Counted from the first letter of the stretch, positions 11,923 to 27,301 are shown. The stretch is DNA of 36,251 bases from Actinomycetota bacterium (GCA_005798555.1 SYJA01000081.1:1-36251); one strand, 5' to 3'. Numbers and translations are program-made. The notes: generated by a model not told the origin, from the letters alone.

Positions 11923-11992
11923 CAACTAATCTGCTTCTTTAACGCAACGAGCAGGTGCCGCTCGGGCTAGCACTCGTTGTGGTAGTTAGTTG
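11923..11992 (+). terminator. Nested inverted repeat between convergent genes
   Basis: Two perfect 7-base inverted repeats are nested: CAACTAA (11923-11929) with TTAGTTG (11986-11992), and inside it CAACGAG (11945-11951) with CTCGTTG (11973-11979), plus an inner GTGC/GCAC pair. It lies between the stop of the secreted protein and the stop of deoA. There is no clean run of T, so termination is likely but not certain. Confidence 0.4.
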
Positions 11993-13275
11993 ATCTTCTC
12001 GATCACCAGTGGCAATCGAGTCACCCGTGAGCCAACTGGACCGATTGCGGTGGCCCCCGCGAGCGCCGCCAACGCACCCTCGAAGCGGCTCTCATCATCG
12101 GTGTGCAGGGTGAGGAGCCGTACCCCAGCGGCTACCTCGTCGCCGGGCTTGGCGTGGATCTGGATCCCGGCCCCCGCCGACACCGGGTCCTCCTTGCGGG
12201 CCCGGCCGGCACCGAGCCGCCATGCCGCAACTCCGACCTGCAATGCATCAAGTCGGGTAAGTACGCCGGCCGCACTCGAAAGCACCTGATGGGAGTACTT
12301 CGCGACCGGCAGCGGGGCTTTTGGGTCACCGCCCTGGGCGCTGATCATCCGATTCCAGACGTCCATGGCGGTGCCATCGCACAAGGTGTCGGCCGGGTCA
12401 ATATCGGTGATGCCCGCTAGGTCGAGCATCTCGCGGGCGAGGGTGATGGTCAACTCGATGATGTCCACCGGGCCGCCGCCGGCCAAAACGTCAACGGATT
12501 CTTGAACCTCTAGGGCATTGCCCACCATCAGGCCAAGGGGCACGTCCATCGCCGTGATCAGGGCCCGGGTGCGAACCCCGGAGTCGGTGCCGATCCGGAC
12601 CATGGTTTCGGCCAACTTGCGGGCCTGCAGCGGGTCGGGCATGAAGGCCCCCGACCCCGTCTTCACATCAAGTACGAGGCCGCCCGCACCCTCGGCGATC
12701 TTCTTACTCATAATGCTCGAGGCAATCAACGGTATTGATTCAACCGTCGCGGTGACATCGCGCAACGCGTAGAGCTTCTTGTCCGCCGGCGCCAGCCCCG
12801 GGCCCGCGGCGCAAATTACCCCGCCCACGGTCTGGAGCACCTGGCACATCTCCTGCGTCGTGAGCCCAGCCCGCCAACCCGGGATCGATTCGAGTTTGTC
12901 GAGGGTGCCACCGGTATGGCCGAGGCCGCGGCCACTTAATTGCGGTACGGCCGCCCCGCAGGCCGCCACCACCGGTACCAGCGGCAGGGTGATCTTGTCA
13001 CCGACGCCACCGGTTGAATGCTTGTCGACGGTCGGGCGATCAAGGGCCGAGAAATCCATCCGCTCACCACTGCGGATCATCGCATCGGTCCAGCGAACGA
13101 TCTCGGCATCGTTCATACCATTGAGGAAAATCGCCATGGCAAGGGCCGACATCTGCTCCTCGGCGACAACCCCGCGCACATAAGCGTCAATGACCCAATC
13201 AATCTGCTCATTCGAGAGCACATAGTTGTCGCGTTTGGCCCGAATTACCTCGACAACCGCGAATGGCTCACTCAT
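11986..13275 (-). CDS. deoA: Thymidine/pyrimidine-nucleoside phosphorylase
   Basis: A 429-residue enzyme that splits thymidine (and possibly uridine) with phosphate into base and (deoxy)ribose-1-phosphate. The phosphate-site motif S-T-G-G-V-G-D-K is near residue 87, followed by G-R-G-L-G-H-T-G-G-T-L-D-K-L-E-S-I-P-G near 115 and S-K-K-I-A-E-G-A-G-G-L-V-L-D-V-K-T-G near 190. The C-terminal domain (R-K-E-D-P-V-S-A-G-A-G-I) is complete. Thymidine and broad pyrimidine specificity cannot be told apart safely. An AGAGGA lies 11 bases before the ATG. Its product enters the mutase/DeoC route. In mycobacteria cdd lies directly beside deoA; here the mtn block begins divergently and cdd is 5 kb away inside it. 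Confidence 0.92.
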   Translation of the reverse strand: MSEPFAVVEVIRAKRDNYVLSNEQIDWVIDAYVRGVVAEEQMSALAMAIFLNGMNDAEIVRWTDAMIRSGERMDFSALDRPTVDKHSTGGVGDKITLPLVPVVAACGAAVPQLSGRGLGHTGGTLDKLESIPGWRAGLTTQEMCQVLQTVGGVICAAGPGLAPADKKLYALRDVTATVESIPLIASSIMSKKIAEGAGGLVLDVKTGSGAFMPDPLQARKLAETMVRIGTDSGVRTRALITAMDVPLGLMVGNALEVQESVDVLAGGGPVDIIELTITLAREMLDLAGITDIDPADTLCDGTAMDVWNRMISAQGGDPKAPLPVAKYSHQVLSSAAGVLTRLDALQVGVAAWRLGAGRARKEDPVSAGAGIQIHAKPGDEVAAGVRLLTLHTDDESRFEGALAALAGATAIGPVGSRVTRLPLVIEKIN

Positions 13276-13503: not shown

Positions 13504-14538
13504 ATGCGTGCCGTTGAGTGGAACAAATCTGCGGAATCCCTGCTACTGATCGACCAGACCCTGCTGCCCGATAAGTATTTCGTGGTGTCCTGCTCCACGG
13601 TTGATCAGGTGGTCGATGCCATCCAACGCCTCGTGGTTCGGGGGGCCCCGGCGCTGGGCGCGGTCGGCGCATACGGCGTAGCGGTTGCCATGATTCAGGC
13701 CCAGCGTGCCGGTTGGTCTGCGGACCAGTTGGCGGAGCAGGTGAGACGTGTGCGTGATGCTCGTCCCACCGCGGTAAATCTCGCGTGGGGGGCCGATCGC
13801 GTGACCCCATTGATGGCCCAGGGAGTCGACGCGGTGCTCGCAGAAGCGGCAGCCGTCATGTTGGAAGACGAGGACGCAAACCGAGAACTTTCACGGTTGG
13901 GTGCCGACTGGATTCTCGCGCGAACCGGGTGCTCAAAGGTCCGAGTGCTGACCCACTGCAACACTGGATTTCTGGCCACCACGGCCTGGGGTACCGCCCT
14001 CGGCATCGTCCGCGAACTCCATCTACGCGATGCGCTGGAACTCGTCTACGTAAACGAGACCCGCCCGCTCCTTCAAGGTTCTCGACTGACGGCGTGGGAA
14101 CTTCGGGAGGAGGGTATCGACTATCTCGTCCAGGTAGATGGCGCCGCCGCCAGCACCATCCTGCGCGGACTGGTCGATGTGGCAATCATTGGCGCCGACC
14201 GAATAGCTCGCAATGGCGACACAGCGAACAAGATCGGCTCGGTGGGTGTCGCATTGGCTTGTGCGGACGCGGGGATTCCGTTCGTGGTGGCCGCTCCATC
14301 AACGACGGTCGACCTCGCAACTTCCACAGGAGAAGAGATTAACATTGAACTGCGCGATGGCGCGGAAGTTACCGCATTAGGTGGCGTCCGCATTGCTCCC
14401 GATGGCGCTACCGGATTCAATCCGGCATTCGACGTAACGCCAGCACGTCTCATCTCAGCAATCGTGACGGAGCAAGGCGTTGTCGAGCCTTCGAAAATGC
14501 CATCGGTGGACAATCTCGTCAAGGAGGAGACGGTATGA
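13504..14538 (+). CDS. mtnA: S-methyl-5-thioribose-1-phosphate isomerase
   Basis: A 344-residue member of the MtnA/eIF2B-alpha-like family that isomerises the aldose 5-methylthioribose-1-P (and in some organisms 5-deoxyribose-1-P) to the ketose. The N-terminal V-V-R-G-A-P-A-L-G loop is near residue 45, the catalytic Cys152 is in T-H-C-N-T-G, the catalytic Asp232 in G-A-D-R-I-A-R-N-G-D, and N-K-I-G follows. Length and residues are those of an active enzyme. It begins at a leaderless promoter and its stop overlaps the aldolase-SDR start as ATGA, with a strong AAGGAGG at 14521-14527 inside its last codons. This tight coupling suggests that its ketose product is the substrate of the next enzyme. 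Confidence 0.93.
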   Translation: MRAVEWNKSAESLLLIDQTLLPDKYFVVSCSTVDQVVDAIQRLVVRGAPALGAVGAYGVAVAMIQAQRAGWSADQLAEQVRRVRDARPTAVNLAWGADRVTPLMAQGVDAVLAEAAAVMLEDEDANRELSRLGADWILARTGCSKVRVLTHCNTGFLATTAWGTALGIVRELHLRDALELVYVNETRPLLQGSRLTAWELREEGIDYLVQVDGAAASTILRGLVDVAIIGADRIARNGDTANKIGSVGVALACADAGIPFVVAAPSTTVDLATSTGEEINIELRDGAEVTALGGVRIAPDGATGFNPAFDVTPARLISAIVTEQGVVEPSKMPSVDNLVKEETV

Positions 14539-16508
14539 GCGATCCGCTACGCCAACTCGTCGAGCGCTCCAATCGCATCGGCGAGGATCCGTCCTTGGTC
14601 GTGTACGGAGGCGGTAACACTTCCGCCAAAGGCACTTTTGTTGACCACCTCGGTCGAGAGCAGGAGGTTATGTGGGTCAAGGGGTCTGGGGCCGACATGC
14701 GCGGTTCGGTCGAATTCGACTACCCGGGACTGCGGCTGGCTGAGCTGACTGCACTAAGCGACCGCGGTGCGCTGACCGACGAGGAGATGACCGACCTCGT
14801 CGCGCGCGCATTACTCGATCCTTCATCGCGGCGGCCATCAATTGAGACGCTATTGCACGCATTCCTCCCCTTCACCCACATTGACCATGTGCACGCCGAT
14901 GCGATCTGTTCGCTGACCAATCATGCTGAGGGACACAAAGTCACCACCGAAGCTCTCGGCGACGGATTCGCGTACGTGGAGTGGATGCGCCCAGGTTTCG
15001 AGTTGAGCAAGATCGTCGGAGACCTCTCGCATTACGACGGTGTGGTTCTTGCGCACCATGGGCTTATCACCTGGGCCGACTCCTCCGACGCTTGTTACCA
15101 ACGAACCATAGCTGTCGTAGCTCAGGCGCGGGATTTTATCGCCCAGCACGCGATCGCCACCGATCCGTTGCCCCGACACGATGACATTCCGGATGACGAA
15201 CTGCAGCGGTTGTTGTTGAGCTTGCGTGGTGCAATTGGTGCAACGGGGCATCGCATCTTGCGCATAGACGCCCGACTCCGCGCGGTCGCAGACCATCCAC
15301 AGGTGGAACAGATTGTCGCGGGCGGAGTCGCCAGCGCAGATCACATGCTGCGTATCAAGCCACGATCACTTGTGGTGAAGTCGATCGATCAAGTTGGATC
15401 AGCAGTTGGGCAGTACCGAGACGAGTACACCGCCTACGTGCAGCGCCACCGCGAGTTACTTCCGGCGGGCTGCGAACCTCACGACGGTATGCCAAGGGTG
15501 ATCCTGGTCCCTGGGCTGGGTGCGATTACCACCGGAGCCCGCGAACAGGAGGCCGCCATCGCGGCCGACATCGCGGTGCACACCCACGAGGTAGCGCGAA
15601 CGGTGCTAGACGCCTTCGGGGCACCTGAGCCGCTGAGTGATCTCGAGACTTTCCTCTTCGACTACTGGCCGATGGAGTTGTTCAAGCTCACTTTGAAACC
15701 GCAGCCCGCGCAATTTGCCGGACGGATCGTGATCGTAACCGGCGCCGCCTCGGGTATTGGTCGAGGTATCGCGTTAGCACTTGGCGCCAGCGGTTGCTCG
15801 CTGGTCCTAGCAGATCGTGACCCGGCTGGCCTGGCGGAGGTAGCGAATTCGTTGAGTGCAGCTGGCGCAGCTGACCCGGTGCTTGTTACCGGAGATCAAT
15901 CGGATTCTTCGGTCACATCGTCCACTGTTCGCCGTGCAGTTCGCCACTTCGGTGGCTTAGATGGAGTGGTCTTCAGCGCCGGGATAGGGGTGAGCGGAAC
16001 TCTGACCGAGTTGACGGACGATCAGTGGGACACTGCATTGCGGGTAAACCTAACCAGCGCTTTCGCACTCACGCGCGAGGCGATGCGGGCAATTCAGGAC
16101 CAAGGCCTCGGCGGGTCGCTGGTGTACGTCGCGAGCAAGAACGCATTTGGACCCGGTGCGGGTTTTGGCGCGTACTCGGTATCTAAGGCGGGTCTGATCC
16201 AACTGATGCGTGTTGCCGCTCTCGAGGGTGGTAGGCACCAAATCAGAGCCAACGCCATCAACCCCGATGCGGTTTTCGATAACTCCAAACTCTGGGAGGG
16301 TGGCCTGCGCGAGAAGCGGGCGGCAGCCCACGGCATCGCACCGGAGAAACTTGAGGACTTCTATGCCTCGCGGAATCTGCTCGGCCGCCGAGTAACCACG
16401 GTAGATGTCGCGCAGGCCGCGGTTTTTCTCCTGTCAGACCACTCGTCACGGACAACCGGTTCGGTACTGACGGTAGATGGCGGGGTTGCTGGGGCTTTTC
16501 CGCGCTAG
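14535..16508 (+). CDS. Class II aldolase - short-chain dehydrogenase fusion (RhaEW/YuxG type)
   Basis: 657 residues in two enzymes. Residues about 1-380 are a class II aldolase/adducin domain with G-G-G-N-T-S near 25, Glu104, His118 and His120 in H-I-D-H-V-H, and His174/175 in A-H-H-G, which fit a zinc site. Residues about 395-657 are a Rossmann SDR domain with T-G-A-A-S-G-I-G near 401, S-A-G-I-G, and the Tyr547-x3-Lys551 catalytic pair. The closest characterised design I recall is RhaEW, which splits rhamnulose-1-P into dihydroxyacetone-P and lactaldehyde and oxidises the latter. Here the coupling to mtnA and absence of rhamnose genes suggest that it cleaves 5-deoxyribulose-1-P and/or methylthioribulose-1-P and then oxidises or reduces the aldehyde. 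Architecture is certain; substrate is inferred. Confidence 0.85.
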   Translation: MSDPLRQLVERSNRIGEDPSLVVYGGGNTSAKGTFVDHLGREQEVMWVKGSGADMRGSVEFDYPGLRLAELTALSDRGALTDEEMTDLVARALLDPSSRRPSIETLLHAFLPFTHIDHVHADAICSLTNHAEGHKVTTEALGDGFAYVEWMRPGFELSKIVGDLSHYDGVVLAHHGLITWADSSDACYQRTIAVVAQARDFIAQHAIATDPLPRHDDIPDDELQRLLLSLRGAIGATGHRILRIDARLRAVADHPQVEQIVAGGVASADHMLRIKPRSLVVKSIDQVGSAVGQYRDEYTAYVQRHRELLPAGCEPHDGMPRVILVPGLGAITTGAREQEAAIAADIAVHTHEVARTVLDAFGAPEPLSDLETFLFDYWPMELFKLTLKPQPAQFAGRIVIVTGAASGIGRGIALALGASGCSLVLADRDPAGLAEVANSLSAAGAADPVLVTGDQSDSSVTSSTVRRAVRHFGGLDGVVFSAGIGVSGTLTELTDDQWDTALRVNLTSAFALTREAMRAIQDQGLGGSLVYVASKNAFGPGAGFGAYSVSKAGLIQLMRVAALEGGRHQIRANAINPDAVFDNSKLWEGGLREKRAAAHGIAPEKLEDFYASRNLLGRRVTTVDVAQAAVFLLSDHSSRTTGSVLTVDGGVAGAFPR

Positions 16509-16574: not shown

Positions 16575-17279
16575 TCAAACCAGGTGGATCACTAGGTCCC
16601 CAAATGTACTCACGTTGGGTTCCTGTGAAGCGGTCGCCTGGCTCTCCCCCAATCGAAGCAGGCCGACTGTTTGCCAGCCTGCTTCGCTGGCCGCATCGAG
16701 TTCGGCCTGCACATCGGACAGGAAAAGCAGGTCCCGGGCCGGGATCTCCAAAAGCTCTGCAATTTGCTCATAGGAGTGGGCTTCAAACTTGGGGCCGGCT
16801 GTCGTGAGGTCGAAGTTGGCGTCGATCAGCAAGTTGAGATCTCCCTGGTCGGCATTGGCGAATAGCGCCTGTTGTGCGGTAACCGAGCCAGATGAGTAGA
16901 TGACGAGAAGGAGGCCGGCTGCGCGCCACGCGATAAGAGCTGGGGGCACATCATCGAATATGTGCGAGGTGAGCTCGCCACGCGCATAGCCCTGTTCCCA
17001 GATGAGTCCCTGCAGTGTCTTCAGGGGCGCGGCTTTGACATCTGCATCTATCCACCCCGCCAACCCGTTCGCCACCGCGTCAAGATCTACCCGGTCAACG
17101 CCTAGCAGGCTGGCCGCCGCGTCGATGGCGGCGGCTGTTGCCGGCTGCGCCTGGTGATCAAGAAGCCAGTCGCGCATCTGCGACCGGGCGTAAGGGAAGA
17201 GCACGTCAGACACGTGACGGGCAGCGCTGGTGGTGCCCTCAATATCCATGACGACCGCGCGGCAGGTGATTTCGACCAT
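16575..17279 (-). CDS. mtnC: Acireductone synthase (enolase-phosphatase E1)
   Basis: About 234 residues of the HAD superfamily. It enolises and dephosphorylates 2,3-diketo-5-methylthiopentyl-1-phosphate to acireductone. Asp12 and Glu14 in V-M-D-I-E-G-T-T (the E1-type D-x-E signature), the Y-S-S-G-S motif near 125 and G-P-K-F-E-A-H-S-Y near 155 followed by L-F-L-S-D-V identify it. I use the ATG at 17277-17279 because the D-x-E motif then lies at the usual distance from the N-terminus; a longer frame up to 17327 would add 16 residues across the mtnB promoter. It is the only mtn gene on the minus strand, divergent from mtnB with 68 bases between them. Confidence 0.9.
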   Translation of the reverse strand: MVEITCRAVVMDIEGTTSAARHVSDVLFPYARSQMRDWLLDHQAQPATAAAIDAAASLLGVDRVDLDAVANGLAGWIDADVKAAPLKTLQGLIWEQGYARGELTSHIFDDVPPALIAWRAAGLLLVIYSSGSVTAQQALFANADQGDLNLLIDANFDLTTAGPKFEAHSYEQIAELLEIPARDLLFLSDVQAELDAASEAGWQTVGLLRLGESQATASQEPNVSTFGDLVIHLV

Positions 17280-17347: not shown

Positions 17348-17959
17348 ATGAGTGGGGAGCATGGTCGGGCGGAGCGGCTCGCCGCCACCGCGCGTCAGCT
17401 TTACGACAGCGGGTGGATGCGTGGGACCTCTGGGAATATTTCGGTAATCGCCCAGGAGGAGCCTCGGCGGCTGCTGGTGAGCGCAAGCGGAATCGCCAAG
17501 CACGCGATCTCGCCCGAGCATGCGGTGCTAACTGATGCTCAAGGAGTTGCGCTGGCGGGCCAGGCTCATAACCCCAGTGCAGAGGCCAAGGTTCACGCCA
17601 AGATCATCGATATCGCGCCGGCGCATGCCGTGGTGCACGTACATACGCTGTCCTCGGTGTTGGCCGCCGCCCGCTGGCCCGAGGGGGTAACCCTGCAAGG
17701 CAACGAATTACTGAAGGGACTTGGGTGCGCTGCTGAGGGCGAGCGGTACCAAGTGCCGGTGGTGGCGAACAGCCAGGACATGGATGATTTGAGCAGCAGC
17801 GTCGCTCAGGCGCTGAACCCCGTAGTGCCGATCGTCTTGGTGGCCGATCATGGAATGTACGTCTGGGGAGCGTCCCTTGAGGATGCGGCGAACCGCACGG
17901 AATGTGCTGACTGGCTGCTTCAGCACGCACTCCTGCGGGAAATGGTGATCGACCGATAG
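17348..17959 (+). CDS. mtnB: Methylthioribulose-1-phosphate dehydratase
   Basis: 203 residues of the class II aldolase/adducin family. It dehydrates 5-methylthioribulose-1-P to the 2,3-diketo-5-methylthiopentyl phosphate used by MtnC. G-T-S-G-N-I-S near residue 26, S-A-E-A-K-V-H near 78, the zinc-binding H-V-H-T near 97 and A-D-H-G-M-Y-V-W-G near 175 are seen. The L-Q-G-N-E-L-L-K-G block and P-V-V-A-N-S-Q-D segment distinguish MtnB from fuculose-type aldolases (MtnB usually has E-L-L-K-A and N-x-Q-D). A deoxyribulose-P aldolase of the same fold is the alternative but less likely, since MtnC and MtnD flank it. It starts the downstream mtn operon and is 27 bases from mtnD. Confidence 0.87.
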   Translation: MSGEHGRAERLAATARQLYDSGWMRGTSGNISVIAQEEPRRLLVSASGIAKHAISPEHAVLTDAQGVALAGQAHNPSAEAKVHAKIIDIAPAHAVVHVHTLSSVLAAARWPEGVTLQGNELLKGLGCAAEGERYQVPVVANSQDMDDLSSSVAQALNPVVPIVLVADHGMYVWGASLEDAANRTECADWLLQHALLREMVIDR

Positions 17960-17986: not shown

Positions 17987-18577
17987 ATGAGCCTACTGAC
18001 CGTATGGTCTGACACCGACCCGGTGACACCCCAGATTCAGACTGCCGATGCCGAGGTAATCGCCCGTGAACTAGGTGGCGTGGGTGTTTCCTATGCGCGC
18101 TTTGACACACGAGATGACGTGCCCCTCGATGGCAGTCAAGAGGGTGTGCTCACCGCCTACCGCGAACTTGTCGAGCAACTCGTGTCAGAGCACGGCTACC
18201 GGTTAATCGATGTGGCCCAACTGCACCTGTCTGCGGACAGCCCTGAATCCCTAAGGGAGACCGCGGCTGGCGCCCGGTTGAAGTTCCTGAGCGAGCATAC
18301 GCATGATGAAGAGGAGATCCGGTTCTTCTCGCAGGGCAGCGGAGTTTTCTACCTGCACATTGGGGACCGAGTACTGGCGATGCTATGCACTGCCGGTGAT
18401 CTCCTCAGCGTCCCAGCTCTGACCACCCACTGGTTCGACATGGGAACCATGCCGGATTTCACGGCGATTCGCTTCTTCCACGACGATGACGGCTGGGTTG
18501 GCACCTTCACCGGTAGTGACATTGCGACGACATTTCCAACGCACGATGAGTTGGCAGCGGCGGCGGCGCGTGCCTGA
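17987..18577 (+). CDS. mtnD: Acireductone dioxygenase
   Basis: 196 residues of the cupin-fold ARD family. With iron it converts acireductone and oxygen to 4-methylthio-2-oxobutanoate and formate. The metal ligands are His104, His106 and Glu110 in H-T-H-D-E-E-E and His148 in T-T-H-W-F-D-M-G. A good AGAAAGGA ribosome-binding site precedes the ATG. Its product needs only a transaminase (MtnE) to give methionine; that gene is not in the window and a general aminotransferase may serve. The 3' end overlaps cdd by 8 bases. Confidence 0.92.
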   Translation: MSLLTVWSDTDPVTPQIQTADAEVIARELGGVGVSYARFDTRDDVPLDGSQEGVLTAYRELVEQLVSEHGYRLIDVAQLHLSADSPESLRETAAGARLKFLSEHTHDEEEIRFFSQGSGVFYLHIGDRVLAMLCTAGDLLSVPALTTHWFDMGTMPDFTAIRFFHDDDGWVGTFTGSDIATTFPTHDELAAAAARA

Positions 18578-18980
18578 CATTGACGAGCCCAGGTGGGAGC
18601 AACTGAGGCAGGCCGCAGGTGCCGCTCGTGAGTTGGCCTATGCCCCTTACTCTCGGCACCCGGTGGGTGCGGCCGCTTTGGTCGATGACGGCCGAATCGT
18701 CAGTGGCAGCAATGTGGAAAACGCCTCCCTCGGCGTGACCCTGTGCGCAGAGTGCTCCCTAATCGGGGATCTCGTTCGCACCGGTGGGCCGGGCAACCGC
18801 GGCCGCCTGGTCGCCTTGGCATGTGTGGGTCCGATGCTCGGTGCGCTCCTGCCCTGCGGCCGGTGCCGCCAACTGCTCTTCGAACACGGTGGTGCGGATC
18901 TGCTCATTGATCGGGACGGGGGGCCGGTACCCCTATCCTTCCTGCTGCCCGACGGCTTCGGCACCGATCAACTGCCATGA
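18570..18980 (+). CDS. cdd: Cytidine deaminase
   Basis: 136 residues, typical for homotetrameric Cdd. It converts (deoxy)cytidine to (deoxy)uridine. Zinc ligands and the catalytic Glu are in N-V-E-N-A-S-L-G-V-T-L-C-A-E-C and P-C-G-R-C-R-Q. The N-terminal A-Y-A-P-Y-S-x-x-P-V-G-A-A segment is also present. GTG 18570 gives the family's usual length; ATG 18546 would add eight Arg-rich residues inside mtnD. It sits between mtnD and the MTI phosphorylase with overlaps on both sides (8 and 4 bases), an unusual place for a pyrimidine enzyme that normally lies next to deoA. Confidence 0.92.
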   Translation: MPDIDEPRWEQLRQAAGAARELAYAPYSRHPVGAAALVDDGRIVSGSNVENASLGVTLCAECSLIGDLVRTGGPGNRGRLVALACVGPMLGALLPCGRCRQLLFEHGGADLLIDRDGGPVPLSFLLPDGFGTDQLP

Positions 18981-19717
18981 GTGCCCTTGGAATAATCGCG
19001 GGAACTGGCTTCTACTCACTCGACGCCCTGGACTCCCCTCGCCAGTCTGATATCCCAACACCGTTTGGATCGGCCCACGTCAACATCGGCATACTTCACG
19101 GACGTGAGACAGTATTTTTAACCCGGCACGGGTCAGACCACTCGGTACCACCGCACCTGATCAACTACCGGGCCAATATTGCGGCGCTCCTGCAGTTGGG
19201 TGTTACCGAGGTGCTCGCGGTCAACGTCGTAGGTGGAATCGGGCTGGATTCAGGCGCCCTTGCGGTGGTCGACGACTTTCTTGACTTTACCAAGACTCGG
19301 CCGGTTACCTTCTTCGATGGCACCACCCCCGAGGGAGTCGGGCACACCGACATGACGCAGCCTTACGACGAGCGACTACGTTCCACCCTCCGCGCCGCCG
19401 CGCAGACCCTTGGCATTGCGGTGGCGCCGACAGGTGTCTACGCGGCTTTCGAGGGTCCGCGCTTCGAGACCCGTGCCGAGATTCGCATGGCTCAGCTGCT
19501 GGGCGCAACCGTGGTGGGCATGACGGGCGTGCCGGAGGTGGTACTTGCCAAGGAGCAGGCCCTGCCGTATGCATCGCTGTGCCTGGTAGCGAACCCGGCC
19601 GCCGGGCTGGGCCCAGAGATTGCGATCGAAAATGTCATGGCGGTCGTATCGCAGGGGGCTCAGCTGGTTGGCCGTATCATCGTGGAGTCCGCGCGGAGGC
19701 TTGCTAATGCGGGCTGA
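18977..19717 (+). CDS. Methylthioadenosine-phosphorylase family enzyme, 6-oxopurine type (probable 5'-methylthioinosine phosphorylase)
   Basis: 246 residues of the PNP/MTAP trimeric family. The phosphate-site G-T-G-F is near residue 9, R-H-G near 50 and N-Y-R-A-N near 63. The A-V-N-V-V-G-G-I segment (81-88), G-P-R-F-E-T-R-A-E with Glu168, and G-M-T-G-V-P-E (181-187) resemble Pseudomonas methylthioinosine phosphorylase. Canonical MtnP instead has G-P-R-F-S-x-R-A-E and a Thr-Asp-Tyr-Asp purine loop. The loop here reads V-A-N-P-A-A-G, with Asn206 in place of the adenine-reading Asp, as in 6-oxopurine PNPs. I infer that it cleaves methylthioinosine (perhaps 5'-deoxyinosine) to hypoxanthine and the 5-substituted ribose-1-P that feeds MtnA. 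The overlapping downstream deaminase would make its substrate. A relaxed MTA phosphorylase is the alternative. Confidence 0.82.
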   Translation: MSALGIIAGTGFYSLDALDSPRQSDIPTPFGSAHVNIGILHGRETVFLTRHGSDHSVPPHLINYRANIAALLQLGVTEVLAVNVVGGIGLDSGALAVVDDFLDFTKTRPVTFFDGTTPEGVGHTDMTQPYDERLRSTLRAAAQTLGIAVAPTGVYAAFEGPRFETRAEIRMAQLLGATVVGMTGVPEVVLAKEQALPYASLCLVANPAAGLGPEIAIENVMAVVSQGAQLVGRIIVESARRLANAG

Positions 19718-21014
19718 CCTCCTCTTCGACGCCGCTAGATATGTCGTCGTGTGCGACGATGCCTCGACGGTGCTGGCCGATGCATCCGTGGCAGTATCGG
19801 ATGGGCGCATCGTTGCGGTGGGGCCGGCGGCACAGCTCAGGCTGGAAGTTGCTGCCGACGAGGTCATCGACGCTCGTGGCCACCTGATAATCCCCGGACT
19901 TATCAACCTGCACACCCACCTGCCGATGACCTTGCTGCGCGGAGTGGCCGAGAACGTCGATCTCCAAGGATTCCTGGAAATCGTTTGGGCCGAAGAAGCC
20001 CGCGTCATGGATCCAACGGGCGTTGAACTCGGCGCCCGCCTCGGGGCCGTTGAAGCCTTACTGGGTGGAACCACCACGGCACTTGACATGTACTTCCACC
20101 CATCGGCGGCGCATCGTGGCGCTGTTGCTGCCGGGCTTCGGCATGTGATCGGCCCGGTATTCTTCTCCTCCCCCGGCCCCGATGGCCTTTCGTGGGAGCA
20201 GCGGATGGACTTAGCGCGCTGCTGGCCGCAGGAGGTAGCCGAGATCGGTGGCCCTTATGTGCCCATTGCCTACCTGCCGCACGCTCCTTTCACCGTGGAG
20301 ATTGAGCACCTAGCGCAGATAGCGGGGCTGGCCCGGGAGACTAACGGAATCATCACAACCCACACCTCCGAGAATGACTCGGAGAACCAGGCCACGATTG
20401 CGTCCCGCGGAATGCGTCCAGTGCGCTGCTTGGCGACCAGTGGCGTGCTCGAACTCTCGCCAATATTGGCACACGGTGTTCGTTTGGATGTGGACGATCG
20501 ACGTAATGTGGCCGATGCGGGAGCAAGCGTTGCACACTGCCCGGGCTCAAACCTGAAGTTGGCCAGCGGCGCAGCTGACATAGTTAGTTATCGATCGGAC
20601 GGTATCCGGGTGGGGTTGGGTACGGACGGCTGCTCATCCAGCAACGACCTTGACATGTTCGCCGTGATGCGGTTGGCCGCAAACCTCGCCCGGCTAGTTC
20701 ACCAAGATCCGGCAGCGATCTGTGCCGCCGACATCGTTCGGATGGCGACCCTTGAAGGTGCTCGCTCCCTCGGAATGGCTGATCGCCTCGGATCCATTGA
20801 GGTTGGCAAAGAGGCCGACCTCGCGGTGCTCGACACTCGTGCTCCGCACCTGACCCCACTCCATGACCCACATACCGCCCTCGTCTTCGCGGCGGGACGG
20901 ACAGATGTGCGACACGTCGTGGTGGCCGGTGCACTTGTTGTGCGAGATCGTCAGTCCGTCCTGATCGATGTGCCGGAGCTTTTGGCACAGGTAGATACCC
21001 GAGTGGGGTCCTGA
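19707..21014 (+). CDS. mtaD: MTA/5'-deoxyadenosine/SAH deaminase (MtaD/DadD type amidohydrolase)
   Basis: 435 residues of the amidohydrolase superfamily, cytosolic. Metal ligands follow the usual order: His69 and His71 in L-H-T-H, His219 with Glu222 in T-T-H-T-S-E, His256 in L-A-H-G and Asp307 in G-T-D-G. The S-N-L-K-L-A-S-G and S-S-N-D-L-D-M-F stretches are the hallmark of the MtaD/TrzA/AtzB-like purine-riboside deaminases acting on MTA, SAH or 5'-deoxyadenosine. The start ATG lies 11 bases inside the phosphorylase gene, so the two are translated together. I infer that it deaminates MTA to methylthioinosine, and probably 5'-deoxyadenosine as well. Which 5' group it prefers cannot be read from sequence. 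Confidence 0.85.
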   Translation: MRADLLFDAARYVVVCDDASTVLADASVAVSDGRIVAVGPAAQLRLEVAADEVIDARGHLIIPGLINLHTHLPMTLLRGVAENVDLQGFLEIVWAEEARVMDPTGVELGARLGAVEALLGGTTTALDMYFHPSAAHRGAVAAGLRHVIGPVFFSSPGPDGLSWEQRMDLARCWPQEVAEIGGPYVPIAYLPHAPFTVEIEHLAQIAGLARETNGIITTHTSENDSENQATIASRGMRPVRCLATSGVLELSPILAHGVRLDVDDRRNVADAGASVAHCPGSNLKLASGAADIVSYRSDGIRVGLGTDGCSSSNDLDMFAVMRLAANLARLVHQDPAAICAADIVRMATLEGARSLGMADRLGSIEVGKEADLAVLDTRAPHLTPLHDPHTALVFAAGRTDVRHVVVAGALVVRDRQSVLIDVPELLAQVDTRVGS

Positions 21015-21466
21015 TGGCCAGCCTGGCGGACCTGACGGCGGCGCAGGTCATTGATCGGCTAGGTCTTGAGTACCTCGACGGCGAGGGCGTCTGGATAAAG
21101 TTAATCTGGAGCAGCAATGCTGGGAACGCCATTTACGCAATGCTGACCCGAGACGACTACTCCGCCCTGCACCGGCTAATGGAAGACGAACTATGGACCC
21201 ATGTAGCCGGTTCGTCGATCGACATGTTGCTCCTGCACCCCGGTGGCCGGAGCGAGACCACCCGCATCGGACCCGGGCTGGACGACTCGGCCTGCGCCTT
21301 GGTGCCGGCCGGCTCTTGGCAGGGGTCGAGTACCTTCGGGGACTGGGCCCTGGTGACGTGCGCGCTGGCGCCGCCCTTTTCGGGGCTTGAGCTGGCGGAC
21401 GGGTCCACCGATCTGACTGCTTGGCAACACTCAGCAGCACGGATTAACGAGTTGATCCGTGGCTGA
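21014..21466 (+). CDS. DUF985-family cupin protein
   Basis: 150 residues of the RmlC-like cupin fold. D-R-L-G-L-E-Y near residue 14, I-Y-A-M-L-T near 39, S-A-L-H-R-L-x-x-D-E-L-W-T-H near 50-60 and V-P-A-G-S-W-Q near 97 followed by G-D-W-A-L-V-T-C are the DUF985 pattern. The His and Glu of the H-R-L-x-x-D-E-L-W segment could bind a metal or sugar. Family function is unknown; the fold is shared by sugar epimerases and dioxygenases. The start overlaps the deaminase stop as TGATG and the end overlaps the SDR gene by 8 bases, so it belongs to the mtn transcript and may handle a sugar or aldehyde by-product. Confidence 0.78.
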   Translation: MASLADLTAAQVIDRLGLEYLDGEGVWIKLIWSSNAGNAIYAMLTRDDYSALHRLMEDELWTHVAGSSIDMLLLHPGGRSETTRIGPGLDDSACALVPAGSWQGSSTFGDWALVTCALAPPFSGLELADGSTDLTAWQHSAARINELIRG

Positions 21467-22241
21467 GACGGGACTGTTAGCGGGTCGGCGGGTGCTGGTG
21501 ACCGGTGCCACCGCAGGTCTGGGTCGAGTCATTGCCGAGGCAATGGCAGATGCCGGAGCCGAAGTGGCAGTTCACGGCCGTAATCGGTCGAGGGCGGAAG
21601 AAGTGGTGCTGGGCATCGGCGAACGTGGGGGTGCTGCCCATGTGGTGGTGGGCGATCTGGCAACCGGACCCGAAGGCGTAGCGTCAATTCACCTAGCGGC
21701 GCGATCGGCTCTTGGGTCCGTGGACATTCTGGTGAATAACGCAGCCGACCAGCGCCCATCTTTATTGGGTGCTGCTGGTTGGGACACTTGGCGTGAAATC
21801 CTTGGGGTGAACCTCCTGGCCGCGGTCGAGCTGACGCGACTGGTATGTGCGGGGGCCGAAGACCTCGAAGGGGTAAGGGTGGTCAACGTGACATCGGTGG
21901 AAGCCCGGGCGCCGTTTCCGGGTCATGCGGCCTACGCGGCGTCTAAAGCGGCCCTGAATTCATTCACGGTGTCGGCGGCGAAGGAGTGGGCTCCGGCGCG
22001 AGTCAACGCGGTGGCTGCGGGACTGACAGATCGGCCCGGGCTGCCGCAGGACTGGCCCCAGGGCTGGTCGTTCTGGGCGGCCACAGCGCCGCTGCAGCGC
22101 CCGGTCAAACCAGAGGAAGTGGCGGCTGCGGTGGTGTTCCTGGCCAGCCCACTTGCATCAGGAATCACAGGAGTCACATTACCCGTGGATGCCGGTTGGA
22201 GTTCCGCAGCTCGCACCCCGTGGCACCGGCGCCCGGAGTGA
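21459..22241 (+). CDS. Short-chain dehydrogenase/reductase (SDR)
   Basis: 260 residues of the classical SDR family. The cofactor motif T-G-A-T-A-G-L-G is near residue 15, N-N-A-A-D near 90 (variant of N-N-A-G), the catalytic Ser in N-V-T-S near 145 and the Tyr-x3-Lys pair in Y-A-A-S-K near 158. The C-terminal V-T-L-P-V-D-A-G-W matches the usual V-x-G/V-D-G-G end. The GTG start lies inside the cupin gene, so it is the last gene of the mtn operon. Substrate is unknown; an aldehyde or polyol from the 5-deoxy/methylthio sugar branch is possible by context. Confidence 0.82.
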   Translation: MAETGLLAGRRVLVTGATAGLGRVIAEAMADAGAEVAVHGRNRSRAEEVVLGIGERGGAAHVVVGDLATGPEGVASIHLAARSALGSVDILVNNAADQRPSLLGAAGWDTWREILGVNLLAAVELTRLVCAGAEDLEGVRVVNVTSVEARAPFPGHAAYAASKAALNSFTVSAAKEWAPARVNAVAAGLTDRPGLPQDWPQGWSFWAATAPLQRPVKPEEVAAAVVFLASPLASGITGVTLPVDAGWSSAARTPWHRRPE

Positions 22242-22405: not shown

Positions 22406-23557
22406 ATGCATCGCAAGATTCTGGCTGTTGGAATCGCCGCAGCCGCGCTTTTCCTAACGAGCTGCTCCAGCAGCACCGGCGAGGCCGCACCCGAGCCCGC
22501 CCCGGCTGCCTCTGAGGCCGCACCTGAGCCCGCCCCGGCTGCCTCTGAGCCCGCCCCGGCTGCCTCTGAGGAGCCGGTATCAGCCGCAACAATGGATGAC
22601 AGCGACTGCGCTGCTCCTGCGAACATCTGCGTCGGGCTCGTTACCGACACCGGCAAGGTGGACGACAAATCCTTCAATCAGGCTGCTTGGGAAGGCACGA
22701 AACTCGCTGCCGAAGAGCTGGGTGCGTTCAGCAAGTACATCGAAACCACCGATCCGAAGGACTACGCGAACAACATCGCGCAATTCGCCGGCAAGAGCTA
22801 CGACGTAATCGTGACCGTAGGGTTCCTGATGGGCGAGGCCACTATCGCTGCGGCCGCAGAGTATCCCAGCGTTAAATTCATCGGTGTGGACCAGTTCCAA
22901 GGTGAGCCGATCGAAAATCTCGCCGGGTTGGTATTCGATGAGAGCAAGGCCGGCTACGCGGTTGGCTATCTAGCAGGTCTGATGACCAAGACCAACAAGA
23001 TCGGTAGTGCGCTCGGTACCGACACCGTGCCGCCGGTCAAGCTCTTCGGTGAGGGCTACAAGGCGGGGGCCCTAGCAGCCAACCCGGACGTGAAAGTCAC
23101 GCTGGTCTACCACGAGCCCAACAACGCCTTCGGTGACCCAGAATGGGGCGCTAATGAGGCCCGCAAGCAGCTTGATCAAGGCGCCGACATTATCTTCGCC
23201 GCGGGTGGTGCCACCGGCAACGGAGGGCTGATTGAGGTCGCCAAAGATCCAGGCGCGGGCACGACCGTGTTCTGCATCGGTGTCGACATCGACCAGTTCT
23301 ACACGGTCCCGCAAGCAGCGAAGTGCCTGTTGACCTCGGCTGAGAAGAAGTTGGTCTCGGGTACCCAGACACTGGTTGTGGCTGCCGCCGGGGGAAGCAT
23401 GACGCCCGGTAACAACTTCGGCCCGACCGGCATCGCGCCCTACCACGACACCGAAGGTGCCGTGCCGGAGGACGTCAAGACAAAGGTCCAAGAAGTTCTC
23501 GCGGGTCTTGAGGATGGCACCATCGACACTGGTTGCCCAGCTTGCTTGGACAACTAG
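22406..23557 (+). CDS. BMP-family nucleoside-binding lipoprotein of an ABC importer
   Basis: 383 residues. A lipoprotein signal ends at F-L-T-S-C (Cys20). A repetitive Ala/Pro/Glu linker (about residues 27-60) leads to a BMP/PnrA-like periplasmic-binding domain beginning I-C-V-G-L-V-T-D-T-G-K-V-D-D-K-S-F-N-Q-A-A-W-E-G, a clear family signature. The domain continues with G-V-D-Q-F and a late C-I-G-V-D-I-D-Q-F-Y segment. BMP proteins bind nucleosides outside the cell and pass them to the permeases encoded downstream. Four Cys residues in the mature domain may pair. A strong terminator follows the gene, which would let the binding protein be made in excess of the membrane parts. Confidence 0.9.
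   Translation: MHRKILAVGIAAAALFLTSCSSSTGEAAPEPAPAASEAAPEPAPAASEPAPAASEEPVSAATMDDSDCAAPANICVGLVTDTGKVDDKSFNQAAWEGTKLAAEELGAFSKYIETTDPKDYANNIAQFAGKSYDVIVTVGFLMGEATIAAAAEYPSVKFIGVDQFQGEPIENLAGLVFDESKAGYAVGYLAGLMTKTNKIGSALGTDTVPPVKLFGEGYKAGALAANPDVKVTLVYHEPNNAFGDPEWGANEARKQLDQGADIIFAAGGATGNGGLIEVAKDPGAGTTVFCIGVDIDQFYTVPQAAKCLLTSAEKKLVSGTQTLVVAAAGGSMTPGNNFGPTGIAPYHDTEGAVPEDVKTKVQEVLAGLEDGTIDTGCPACLDN
22484..22570 (+). repeat. In-frame tandem repeat encoding the A/P/E/S linker
   Basis: Two near-identical 33-base units (22484-22516 and 22517-22549, one C/T difference) are followed by a 21-base partial unit (22550-22570). They encode the repeated Ala-Ala-Pro-Glu-Pro-Ala-Pro-Ala-Ala-Ser-Glu linker between lipid anchor and binding domain. 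Copy number may vary between strains. Confidence 0.9.
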
Positions 23558-23579
23558 CGATCTAGCGTTGCACAGCGCA

Positions 23580-23620
23580 CAGGGGTGGGAGCGGTCCTTG
23601 GCCGCTCCCACCCCTGTTTT
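23580..23620 (+). terminator. Rho-independent terminator after the binding-protein gene
   Basis: A perfect 15-bp stem (23580-23594 with 23602-23616), GC-rich, has a 7-base loop and is followed by TTTT. It lies between the binding-protein stop (23557) and the first permease (23670). It should attenuate read-through into the permease and ATPase genes. Confidence 0.85.
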
Positions 23621-23669
23621 ATAAATTTTATGGCCACCCGGCCATGGCTATCTGGAAGGAAGCCAAGTC

Positions 23670-24788
23670 ATGTCTGTGACCGACCCTTCGCAAACGGATT
23701 TGGGCCACACCGACCCGGACCCGATGCGGGCTGGTCGCTGGCCCCGGGTGCAGGCTGTTGCTATTCCAGTGGTGTCGGTCCTCCTGGCATTCGCCCTTGG
23801 CGGGATCCTTATTTGGTTGCAGGGAGTCAATCCGTTTTATGCCTACTGGGTGCTTTTCGAGAACGCCCTGGGGTCGAGCGAGGGCCTACTTCGAGTAATG
23901 CAGAAGTCCACGCCGTTGATTCTCACTGGGTTGGCGGTGACGATAGGACTTAGAACCGGACTGTTTAATATCGGTGCACAGGGGCAGCTCCTCGTTGGTG
24001 CGATCGGCGCGGCATGGGCTGGCTACAACTTCCAATTACCCGCCCTTATTCACATTCCTTTCGCCATTGCCTTCGGGATGCTGTGCGGTGCGGCCTGGGC
24101 CTCTATCGCCGGCGTCCTTAGGGCATATCGCAGCGTATCCGAAGTAATCACGACGATCATGCTGAATGCTGTGGCTATCGCTCTAGTGGACTACCTGGCG
24201 AGCCGGCCCCTCAAGGAGCCGGACCAACCCATCACCCGGACCCCACCGGTTGCGGATAGCGCGGCCTTGCCGGACTTCGGCACCGTGCCCGCGGGCTTCT
24301 TGATTGCCCTAGCCGTAGCCATCTTCTTCAGTTGGTTCCTGACTCGCACGAATCAGGGGTTCCGCTTCAACACGGTAGGCATGAATCCAAACGCGGCGAA
24401 CTATGCGGGTATCGGAGTCAAGAGGACTATCTTCCTCGCCATGGCTGTCAGCGGTGCCCTAGCAGGTTTGGGAGGTGCAGTCGAAACACTGGGAATCACC
24501 GGGAGATTTGAGCCAACATTCAACGCCGGACTAGGTTTTGACGGAATCACGATTGCCCTGCTCGCGCGTGCTAATCCCCTTGCGACCATTCCTGCGGCGC
24601 TTTTGGTCGGCATTCTGCGATCAGGTGCGGCGACGCTGCAGTTCGAGACCGGCATCGAACCCGAGGTGGTCGATGTCATCTTGGCGTTGACCTTGCTATT
24701 TGTCGCTGCACCAATAGTGAGCCGACTGCTGCTCCGCAAAAAGACGCAGAAGCGGACTAGCGTCGATTCAGGCGGGGGTGGCGTATGA
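23670..24788 (+). CDS. Nucleoside ABC transporter permease (YufP type)
   Basis: 372 residues of the branched-chain/BMP-type permease family, inner membrane. A short cytoplasmic N-terminus is followed by about nine or ten helices. Family landmarks include G-L-R-T-G-L-F-N-I-G-A-Q-G-Q-L near residue 92, S-E-V-I-T-T-I-M-L-N near 160 and G-A-L-A-G-L-G-G near 265. An AAGGA ribosome-binding site precedes the ATG. The stop overlaps the second permease as ATGA. With the BMP lipoprotein and double ATPase this makes one complete importer; by family its cargo is nucleosides, which fits the neighbouring catabolic genes. Confidence 0.9.
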   Translation: MSVTDPSQTDLGHTDPDPMRAGRWPRVQAVAIPVVSVLLAFALGGILIWLQGVNPFYAYWVLFENALGSSEGLLRVMQKSTPLILTGLAVTIGLRTGLFNIGAQGQLLVGAIGAAWAGYNFQLPALIHIPFAIAFGMLCGAAWASIAGVLRAYRSVSEVITTIMLNAVAIALVDYLASRPLKEPDQPITRTPPVADSAALPDFGTVPAGFLIALAVAIFFSWFLTRTNQGFRFNTVGMNPNAANYAGIGVKRTIFLAMAVSGALAGLGGAVETLGITGRFEPTFNAGLGFDGITIALLARANPLATIPAALLVGILRSGAATLQFETGIEPEVVDVILALTLLFVAAPIVSRLLLRKKTQKRTSVDSGGGGV

Positions 24789-25759
24789 GAGCCCGCTACG
24801 CCTACATGCTGACGATCGTAATCCTGTCTTTCATCCTTCTAGCCTACGTGCTGGACGCGACGCGCACGGTCTCAGTGCTGTCCTTCTCATTGCGCTACGC
24901 CGTCCCGCTGATCTTGGCCGCGATGGTGGGCGTTATCTGCGAGCGCAGCGGTGTGATCAACATCGGCATCGAAGGCCAGATGCTGATGAGTGCCTTTGCA
25001 GGATTTTTCGGGGCAGCTTTGACCGGAAACCTGATCGTCGGAACAATGATTGGTGTCGGCACAGGTATGATCATGGGGGCCTTCTTGGCGACGGGAGCGG
25101 TCACCTGGAAAATGGATCAGATAATCGCTGGCACCATTATAAATATCCTTGCGACCGGTCTGACGTCATTTTTCTATGCGCAGGGTTACGTCTTGCCCGC
25201 CATCACTCCACAATTGCGAATCCCAGGGTTGGCGGATATCCCCCTCATCGGACCAGTGTTGTTCGATAACGGACTGTTCACCTACGCGGCGATTGCGTCG
25301 GCATTCGTGCTGTGGATCCTGCTGTTCAAGACGATCTGGGGATTGCGCACGCGGGCTGTGGGTGAGATGCCCGGATCGGCCGATACCTCCGGCGTGAACG
25401 TGCAGCGCATGCGGTTTCTCAATGTCACCTTTGCCGGCGCCCTCGCTGGTTTGGCAGGTGCCTATCTTTCTATCGAGGCCGCCAGTAATTTCGACCGCGG
25501 GATGACGGCTGGTAGAGGGTTCACTGCCCTCGCGATCATGATCTTCGGTGCCTGGAATCCGATCGGAGCTATGGCGGCTGCCTTGTTTTTCGGGCTGGCG
25601 AATGGCCTTGCCAGTCAGCTCCAGACAGATGAAGTCATCGACATCCCGCCCCAGTTCATCAACATGCTGCCGTACGTATTGACAATTGTTCTGCTGGCGA
25701 TTGTCTCCGGCCGCATCAAGCCCCCGGCGGCGGTCGGCAAACCCTACGAGAAGGAATAG
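24785..25759 (+). CDS. Nucleoside ABC transporter permease (YufQ type)
   Basis: 324 residues, the second permease of the importer. After a first helix (L-T-I-V-I-L-S-F-I-L-L-A-Y) come the family motifs C-E-R-S-G-V-I-N-I-G-I-E-G-Q-M near residue 50 and W-K-M-D-Q-I-I-A-G-T-I-I-N near 115. A G-A-L-A-G-L-A-G-A-Y loop lies near 223. It forms the heterodimeric membrane channel with the preceding permease, whose gene it overlaps by 4 bases, and the ATPase gene follows 9 bases after its stop. Confidence 0.9.
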   Translation: MRARYAYMLTIVILSFILLAYVLDATRTVSVLSFSLRYAVPLILAAMVGVICERSGVINIGIEGQMLMSAFAGFFGAALTGNLIVGTMIGVGTGMIMGAFLATGAVTWKMDQIIAGTIINILATGLTSFFYAQGYVLPAITPQLRIPGLADIPLIGPVLFDNGLFTYAAIASAFVLWILLFKTIWGLRTRAVGEMPGSADTSGVNVQRMRFLNVTFAGALAGLAGAYLSIEAASNFDRGMTAGRGFTALAIMIFGAWNPIGAMAAALFFGLANGLASQLQTDEVIDIPPQFINMLPYVLTIVLLAIVSGRIKPPAAVGKPYEKE

Positions 25760-25768
25760 AGGTGAACT

Positions 25769-27301
25769 ATGTCGTCCGCGGGTTCTGAGGTGCCAATTCT
25801 TCAGGTGCGCGGTCTCACCAAGCGCTTTCCCGGCGTGGTCGCCAATCAGGATGTGTCCTTGTCCATCGCCCCGGGCCAAATTGTTGGACTACTTGGCGAA
25901 AACGGTGCAGGGAAGTCCACGCTGGTCAAAATGATCTACGGGCTCTACGAGCCAGATGAGGGCGAAATCATCATCAAGGGCTCGCCGGTGAGACTTTCAG
26001 GGCCTCGGGATGCGATTCGACGGGGAATCGGAATGGTGCATCAGCACTTCCAACTCGTTCCGGTCTTCACCGTAGCTGAGAATGTCATTCTTGGTGATGA
26101 GCCACATAAGTCGGTGTTCATCAATATGAAAAGAGCCACTCAGGAAGTAGCGCGATTGTCCGAGCAATTCGGCCTTGCGGTCGATGTGAATGCAAAAGTC
26201 GAGGGCCTTCCGGTCGGTGCCAAGCAGCGTGTAGAGATCCTCAAAGCGCTGTATCGTCGCGCTGACATCTTGATTATGGATGAACCTACCGCCGTCCTCA
26301 CGCCGCGGGAAACGGATGAACTGCTGAAGGTCATTCGAGGGTTCGCGGACAACGGAGTAGCGGTTATTTTCATCACTCACAAGCTTCGTGAGGTCCTTGC
26401 CATTGCCGACACCATTGAGGTGCTGCGGGACGGAAAAGTGGTGGGTACAACAACACCTGGTGAAACTGACCAGGCGGGACTGGCTCAGATGATGGTGGGC
26501 CGTAGCGTTTTGCTGACCGTCAACAAGACCCCTGCTGAGCCAGGTGCGATCGTCCTTGACGTTCAAGGACTCGCTGTCGCCACTGATCTAGGTCTCCCGG
26601 CAGTCCGCGGTGTTGACCTTCAGGTGCGTGCAGGGGAGATCTTGGGCATCGCGGGCGTTGAGGGTAATGGCCAGCGTGAGCTGGTTGAGGCCCTGACCGG
26701 GCTGCGACATTGCACGGCCGACCACATGTCGGTCTCGGGCATGAGCACCCTGGGACAAAGTCCGCACGCAATTCATGCGATGGGTGTGGGCCACGTGCCG
26801 GAGGATCGGGAGAAGGATGGCTTGGTCGGCCCTTACTCCATCGCTGACAACCTGGTGCTCAATAGATTCGATGAACCGGAATTCTCGAGCAGGGGGGTGC
26901 GCAATCGCTCAGCGGTAAACGCCTTGGCTACCGAACTTGTCAGTGAGTACGACGTGCGCACCCCAACTATCACCACCTCCGCCGAGTCGCTGTCTGGCGG
27001 CAATAAGCAGAAAGTGATTATTGCCAGAGAATTAGCGTCGAATCCCGAGTTGCTGATTGCATCTCAGCCGACTCGAGGTGTCGACGTCGGTTCCATCGAG
27101 TTCATTCATTCGAGGATTGTGGCAGCGCGGGACAGGGGCGCAGCGATACTCCTCGTATCCGCGGAGCTCGACGAAGTCCTCGGTCTGGCCGATCGAGTCT
27201 TGGTAATGTACAACGGTCGTTTCGTTGCGGAAATAGCCTCCGCGGATATCGACCGAACGAGTATCGGGAGACTGATGGCTGGCGGAGACGTCCAGCAATA
27301 G
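25769..27301 (+). CDS. Nucleoside ABC transporter ATP-binding protein (two ABC domains)
   Basis: 510 residues with two fused nucleotide-binding domains. In domain 1 the Walker A G-E-N-G-A-G-K-S-T is near residue 45, a Q-loop H-Q-H-F-Q-L near 92, and the Walker B I-M-D-E-P-T near 170. Domain 2 begins near 255 with a degenerate Walker A (G-V-E-G-N-G-Q-R-E-L), a good L-S-G-G-N-K-Q-K signature near 410 and the Walker B changed to L-I-A-S-Q-P-T-R-G-V-D. This asymmetric pattern is usual for sugar/nucleoside ABC ATPases. It powers import by the two upstream permeases. It converges with the mutase gene on the other strand. Confidence 0.9.
   Translation: MSSAGSEVPILQVRGLTKRFPGVVANQDVSLSIAPGQIVGLLGENGAGKSTLVKMIYGLYEPDEGEIIIKGSPVRLSGPRDAIRRGIGMVHQHFQLVPVFTVAENVILGDEPHKSVFINMKRATQEVARLSEQFGLAVDVNAKVEGLPVGAKQRVEILKALYRRADILIMDEPTAVLTPRETDELLKVIRGFADNGVAVIFITHKLREVLAIADTIEVLRDGKVVGTTTPGETDQAGLAQMMVGRSVLLTVNKTPAEPGAIVLDVQGLAVATDLGLPAVRGVDLQVRAGEILGIAGVEGNGQRELVEALTGLRHCTADHMSVSGMSTLGQSPHAIHAMGVGHVPEDREKDGLVGPYSIADNLVLNRFDEPEFSSRGVRNRSAVNALATELVSEYDVRTPTITTSAESLSGGNKQKVIIARELASNPELLIASQPTRGVDVGSIEFIHSRIVAARDRGAAILLVSAELDEVLGLADRVLVMYNGRFVAEIASADIDRTSIGRLMAGGDVQQ

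Follow-up and report, generated by a model that had tools for sequence, protein, structure and literature searches.

The stretch of DNA analysed here (the window, 36,251 nucleotides) comes from an actinobacterial genome (G000) of 2.09 Mb, which is 86% complete and has nine radical-SAM matches. From its kin, the related contigs being named either Candidatus Nanopelagicales or Actinomycetota, we infer that it belongs to the order Candidatus Nanopelagicales. The window contains all of the universal methionine salvage genes for MtnA, MtnB, MtnC and MtnD, together with a gene for an aldolase-dehydrogenase fusion protein and a set of genes related to nucleoside metabolism, as listed in Table 1.

Table 1 Features of the mtnA-fusion locus, with positions counted from the first letter of the window.
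Feature	Position	Strand	Basis of assignment
Thymidine/pyrimidine-nucleoside phosphorylase, neighbour	11986..13275	-	NF004490 611 bits, over cut-off
mtnA, 5-methylthioribose/5-deoxyribose-1-phosphate isomerase	13504..14538	+	TIGR00512 395 bits (cut-off 279)
Shine-Dalgarno AAGGAGG and ATGA overlap	14521..14538	+	Sequence; relatives with the same arrangement
Aldolase-SDR fusion, mtnA-linked clade, 657 aa	14535..16508	+	PF00596 and PF13561/PF00106
mtnC, acireductone synthase (enolase-phosphatase)	16575..17279	-	TIGR01691 219.5 bits (cut-off 128)
mtnB, methylthioribulose-1-P dehydratase	17348..17959	+	TIGR03328 157.5 bits (cut-off 137)
mtnD, acireductone dioxygenase	17987..18577	+	PF03079 86 bits
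Cytidine deaminase (cdd), start codon uncertain	18570..18980	+	NF004064 149 bits, over cut-off
S-methyl-5'-thioinosine phosphorylase (MTIP)-type nucleoside phosphorylase	18977..19717	+	NF006599 247.7 bits (cut-off 223)
MTA/SAH/5'-dAdo-type deaminase (amidohydrolase), putative start	19620..21014	+	PRK09045 374 bits, PRK07228 296 bits, both below cut-off
DUF985 cupin (Cupin_5)	21014..21466	+	PF06172 74 bits; conserved in related loci
Separate SDR	21459..22241	+	SDR family matches; conserved in related loci
BMP-type (nucleoside-type) ABC importer: binding protein, two permeases, ATPase	22406..27301	+	Family matches

The closest PDB relatives of the MtnA protein are themselves MtnA structures (1t9k, 6a34 and 2yrf). 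Its gene runs straight into that of the fusion: the ATGA at 14535-14538 is the stop of mtnA and the start of the fusion in one, and the AAGGAGG at 14521-14527 lies within mtnA, seven bases 5' of the fusion ATG. This overlap, and the strong ribosome-binding site inside mtnA, were already pointed out in a preliminary description of the locus and are confirmed here; overlap or close spacing of the two genes is repeated among the relatives.

Among the other proteins of the module, the MTIP-type phosphorylase has 3ozb as its closest PDB relative, and the deaminase is most similar to 4f0r, an MTA/SAH deaminase. The deaminase scores below the cut-off for 5'-dAdo deaminases, which counts against the interpretation given below. 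The DUF985 cupin and the separate SDR possibly have a role in further aldehyde or deoxy-sugar handling. In the importer, the second permease was assigned by ORF position and by homology to related loci, and a relative's copy of the binding protein matches PF02608 (Bmp). The window also encodes a purine nucleoside phosphorylase (PNP) and a phospho-sugar mutase, which provide an outlet for ribose-1-P. Further upstream, positions 7687-8550 encode a 287-residue protein that matches aldehyde dehydrogenases over only about their N-terminal half, and its gene comes immediately 3' of that for a full-length aldehyde dehydrogenase (6221-7690); this pair recurs in L140, L058 and L143.

The fusion protein consists of an Aldolase_II domain (residues 12-198) and a short-chain dehydrogenase domain (approximately residues 394-651), as assigned by Pfam. 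The aldolase metal ligands H118, H120 and H175 are intact, as is E104, and the same is true of the TGxxxGIG motif, D427, S534, Y547 and K551 in the SDR. D427 terminates the second Rossmann strand, where an aspartate is the usual mark of a preference for NAD. The AlphaFold2 model of the fusion is confident (mean pLDDT 90.8), and a Foldseek search with it confirmed both domains, the class II aldolase (3m4r) and the SDR. Residue 104 (E or D) was considered as a marker of specificity and then dropped, because the contig scan had selected on the sequence IETLLHAF and its frequency is thus biased. In one relative (L036:7405-9392, G029:C3) the fusion is found in three frames near the C-terminus, with breaks near residues 562 and 615, which are either frameshifts arising from assembly error or real decay.

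The preliminary description proposed a survey of other genomes, and the pair proves to be conserved. Across a survey of 166 genomes from this one order, mostly MAGs, mtnA is present in 51 and the mtnA-type fusion in 39 (37 at E <= 1e-90, together with a partial copy in G020 and the copy in G127). In 36 of the 39, mtnA is immediately 5' of the fusion on the same strand, and in G065 and G078 the upstream neighbour of the fusion is hidden by a contig end. The pairing is not a matter of chance: the co-occurrence of the two genes has a Fisher p of 3e-24, in genomes that are related and not independent. A real exception, which counts against our interpretation, is G120, where the fusion is present but mtnA is not detectable anywhere in the genome and an artefact of a contig break was ruled out. 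The fusion of that genome (L166:814-3579, G120:C92) is 61% identical to that of the window, and is accompanied by a GntR regulator related to those of the mtnA-fusion loci. Beyond the order set, the pair is found in at least two lake actinobacteria (L056 and L058). A Nanopelagicales-type mtnA-fusion locus is also present in a record named Rubrivirga sp. (Rhodothermota; L053, PBTV01000014.1), where the junction is that of G074:C35 from the present order; the name of this record is probably wrong.

In nine of the genomes with mtnA (G011, G023, G114, G119, G024, G071, G083, G117 and G118), all of which lack the mtnA-type fusion, mtnA is adjoined by a single-domain FucA-type aldolase of around 210 residues. 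In G011, G023, G114 and G119 this aldolase occupies the exact slot of the fusion, with mtnA and mtnC on either side and mtnB and mtnD following, and in the first three of these the remainder of the operon is also ordered as in the window. The other arrangements are mtnA-aldolase-MTIP (G024 and G118), MTIP-deaminase-aldolase-mtnA (G083 and G117) and mtnA-aldolase-cdd-deaminase (G071). In known DHAP shunts the class II aldolases Ald2 and DrdA catalyse this step (PMC10986504, PMC6079011, PMC12632272). Given this role and the exchange in one slot, the simplest reading is that the fusion and the stand-alone aldolase serve the same step, and since each of them co-occurs with MtnB in one operon, that step is not the one catalysed by MtnB. 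The exchange is stronger evidence than that put forward in the preliminary description. It may be added that G118 encodes, alongside mtnA and the stand-alone aldolase, a second, divergent MtnA-like protein (L154:2996-3994, G118:C223), which is 32% identical to the MtnA of the window and scores 239 bits, below the cut-off.

The neighbourhood of the pair is not identical in all the genomes. G136, G139, G140 and L057, which represent a second family within the order, have a GntR gene beside an operon of mtnA, the fusion, a sugar ABC importer and mtnK, with MtnK over the cut-off; MtnK is found in L057, L161 and others, and G149 has the order mtnA-fusion-mtnK. In the regions around L056 and L058 (L139 and L140), a run of importer, MTIP, deaminase, cupin and SDR genes diverges from one of mtnA, fusion, cdd and phosphorylase. 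In 19 fusion genomes that were checked, MTIP is present in 14 and not found in 5, the latter counting against our interpretation, and MtnB is above the cut-off in only 9, so that the fusion does not form a dependent component of the universal methionine salvage pathway. A sister fusion in a member of the Euzebyaceae (L059) has no mtnA beside it; its neighbours are a gene resembling uridine phosphorylase and, once more, the DUF985 cupin, which leaves room for activity on ribulose-1-P. A different setting is seen in G145:C122 (L157:1091-7298), where an mtnA with no aldolase nearby is located among recA-recX, corA, miaA and a radical-SAM gene of the MiaB type. The MiaB enzyme itself makes 5'-deoxyadenosine.

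From the gene content and its conservation, we consider it likely that a variant DHAP shunt is encoded here, with one protein joining an aldolase for 5-deoxy- (and probably 5-methylthio-) ribulose-1-P to an aldehyde dehydrogenase. The deaminase would act on 5'-deoxyadenosine or MTA, and phosphorolysis by the MTIP-type enzyme would then yield 5-deoxy- or 5-methylthioribose-1-P, for which MtnK would be the source in other species of the order. MtnA would isomerise this sugar phosphate to its ribulose-1-P counterpart. Cleavage by the aldolase half would then give dihydroxyacetone phosphate and either acetaldehyde or methylthioacetaldehyde, an aldehyde that the SDR half would convert in place, most likely by NAD+ oxidation as in the RhaW domain. 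Oxidation is the better guess because of the behaviour of RhaEW from C. aurantiacus, for which NAD+ oxidation was shown, the dehydrogenase was required for net cleavage, and reductase activity was not seen (PMC3870299). The activity of the fusion, its C4 stereochemistry, its substrate preference and its redox direction are what we infer from sequence. In the window, where MtnB, MtnC and MtnD are present, the fusion would most likely act mostly on 5-deoxyribulose-1-P, and in relatives without MtnB it would probably act on both compounds. A separate outlet for 5-deoxy sugars makes sense because PNP and the mutase cannot serve a sugar that has no 5-hydroxyl. Such a second outlet was the central proposal of the preliminary description, and it gains support from the conservation of the pair and the exchange in the operon slot, and from the rhamnose gene searches described next. 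The MtnK and MTIP genes that occur with the fusion, the lack of MtnB over its cut-off in around half of the fusion genomes checked, and the nine radical-SAM matches of G000 also speak for the shunt.

The two-domain architecture is identical to that of RhaEW, and TIGR02632 is among the best models for the fusion, which raises the question of whether it is simply a rhamnulose-1-P aldolase/lactaldehyde dehydrogenase that lies beside mtnA by chance. This is highly improbable. The score on TIGR02632 is 535.2 bits, below the cut-off of 567.75, with 518 for L057 and 524 for L059, as against around 1,000 for rha-linked copies (1023 for L043); the score on NF006190 (571 bits) is also under the cut-off. 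The order contains 17 rhamnose-type fusions (34-38% identical), none of which is adjacent to mtnA, and RhaI adjoins four of the seven distant copies (approximately 35% identical) that came to light first in the relatives. The mtnA-linked fusions form one clade (SH-aLRT 99, in a tree made by a quick method without bootstrap), and the rhaI-linked copies fall in another, also well supported. In three genomes (G012, G020 and G021) the two types occur together, each on its own contig, with the second copy beside rhaI. PF06134 alone is a weak test for rhamnose metabolism in this group, and RhaI was added (TIGR02629, with TIGR02635 for a confirmed example): RhaA was not found in G000 or its genus, nor RhaI in G000. 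The fusion of the window has mtnA and mtnC as its neighbours rather than a rhamnose isomerase or kinase (the genome-wide searches covered RhaA and RhaI). The tie to rhamnose genes for which the preliminary description suggested looking was thus not detected. The pair in L034 has an FGGY kinase nearby, which was considered as a rhamnulokinase and rejected, being a xylulokinase. According to a 2013 study, orthologues of RhaEW are without exception encoded in rha loci (PMC3870299), and the mtnA-linked clade falls outside this rule. The best reading of its origin is that the fusion was recruited from a RhaEW-like ancestor. The known substrate of RhaEW has, as for RhaD-type aldolases, the opposite configuration at C4 to 5-deoxyribulose-1-P, and therefore a changed stereopreference would be needed in the fusion, a point against our interpretation. 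For DrdA, a FucA-like 3R,4R configuration has been inferred.

The choice of sugar is less clear-cut. MtnA, MtnK and Ald2 are known to accept both 5-deoxy and 5-methylthio substrates, and for this reason the sequence cannot decide between them. It is possible, though we favour it less, that the main substrate is 5-methylthioribulose-1-P, so that the fusion disposes of MTA or releases its sulfur as an O2-independent alternative to MtnBCD, with 5-deoxyribulose-1-P as a side substrate. The absence of MtnB from around half of the fusion genomes points this way, implying that there the fusion takes 5-methylthioribulose-1-P or that the methylthio branch is absent, as do the methylthioinosine type of the phosphorylase, the assignment of MtnK to the methylthioribose kinase family, and the acceptance of 5-methylthioribulose-1-P by Ald2 of R. 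rubrum. However, in the window and several relatives MtnB, MtnC and MtnD already use this compound in the same operon, and an extra aldolase beside them would waste methionine carbon and sulfur. Cleavage of D-ribulose-1-P, made by MtnA from nucleoside ribose-1-P, to DHAP and glycolaldehyde and then glycolate appears unlikely. A nucleoside route of this kind is real in haloarchaea, and the stand-alone aldolases score well, though below the cut-off, on the haloarchaeal ribulose-1-P aldolase model (RU1PAldHalo), a score that does not itself show the substrate. The cdd and pyrimidine-nucleoside phosphorylase neighbours, which in L056 and L058 are in one run with the pair, and the uridine-phosphorylase-like gene beside the L059 fusion would also fit. 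Against this, PNP and phospho-sugar mutase already serve ribose-1-P in the window, the MtnK, MtnBCD and MTIP encoded alongside the pair indicate 5-modified sugars, and the cdd/deoA/sdh neighbourhood of the module may be ancestral.

Two further proposals of the preliminary description are to be modified. That MtnB keeps the methylthio branch does not hold as a general rule, MtnB being missing from so many fusion genomes. Disposal of 5'-deoxyadenosine from radical-SAM enzymes remains one likely source of substrate, but catabolism of 5'-deoxynucleosides taken up from outside is equally indicated, because the deaminase, the phosphorylase and the BMP-type importer share the locus. A wider role is also conceivable, although we think it rather doubtful: MtnA and the fusion may form a general outlet for nucleoside-derived pentose-1-phosphates beyond ordinary pentose metabolism, or even for ribose-1-P. 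If so, imported nucleosides would be converted to DHAP and a small acid (acetate, methylthioacetate or glycolate) with the aldehyde handed on, and small aquatic actinobacteria would have a bacterial route for nucleoside sugars apart from the pentose phosphate pathway.

5'-Deoxyadenosine and MTA are universal by-products of SAM, but how cells dispose of 5-deoxyribose became clear only in 2018-2020, for pathways in which the aldolase is a separate enzyme. If our reading is right, the fused aldolase-dehydrogenase is a second, convergent enzyme solution, which also handles the toxic aldehyde. It would account for a set of genes that are likely to receive the annotation rhamnulose-1-P aldolase/dehydrogenase where rhamnose genes are lacking, and would point to excreted 5'-deoxynucleosides as a food source for small aquatic actinobacteria. 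Since two types of aldolase exchange in one operon slot, the claim is directly testable.

Among the papers searched, no description of an mtnA-linked, fused variant of the DHAP shunt was found. The locus resembles the shunt of R. rubrum and of ExPEC strains of E. coli (MtnN/MtnK or MtnP, MtnA, Ald2) and the DrdK-DrdI-DrdA pathway of B. thuringiensis in having a phosphorylase or kinase, then MtnA and then a class II aldolase beside mtnA, with DHAP and an aldehyde as the expected products. Ald2 and DrdA are single-domain FucA-type enzymes, whereas the fusion, as set apart by family assignment, combines an aldolase of RhaE type with an SDR; unlike the known shunts, its loci often include MtnBCD, an MTA/dAdo-type deaminase and an ABC importer. 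With RhaEW (YuxG of B. subtilis, and the C. aurantiacus enzyme) it shares its architecture and approximately 35-40% identity, and cleavage and oxidation by one enzyme are expected, but it belongs to a separate clade, is linked to mtnA rather than rha genes, and is under the cut-off of the RhaEW model. Haloarchaeal nucleoside degradation likewise converts a nucleoside-derived pentulose-1-P to DHAP and a small aldehyde. It does so with R15P isomerase and a kinase, a stand-alone FucA-type aldolase, no MtnA and no fusion, and a separate enzyme converts the aldehyde, the step that in the mtnA-linked protein would fall to the fused SDR.
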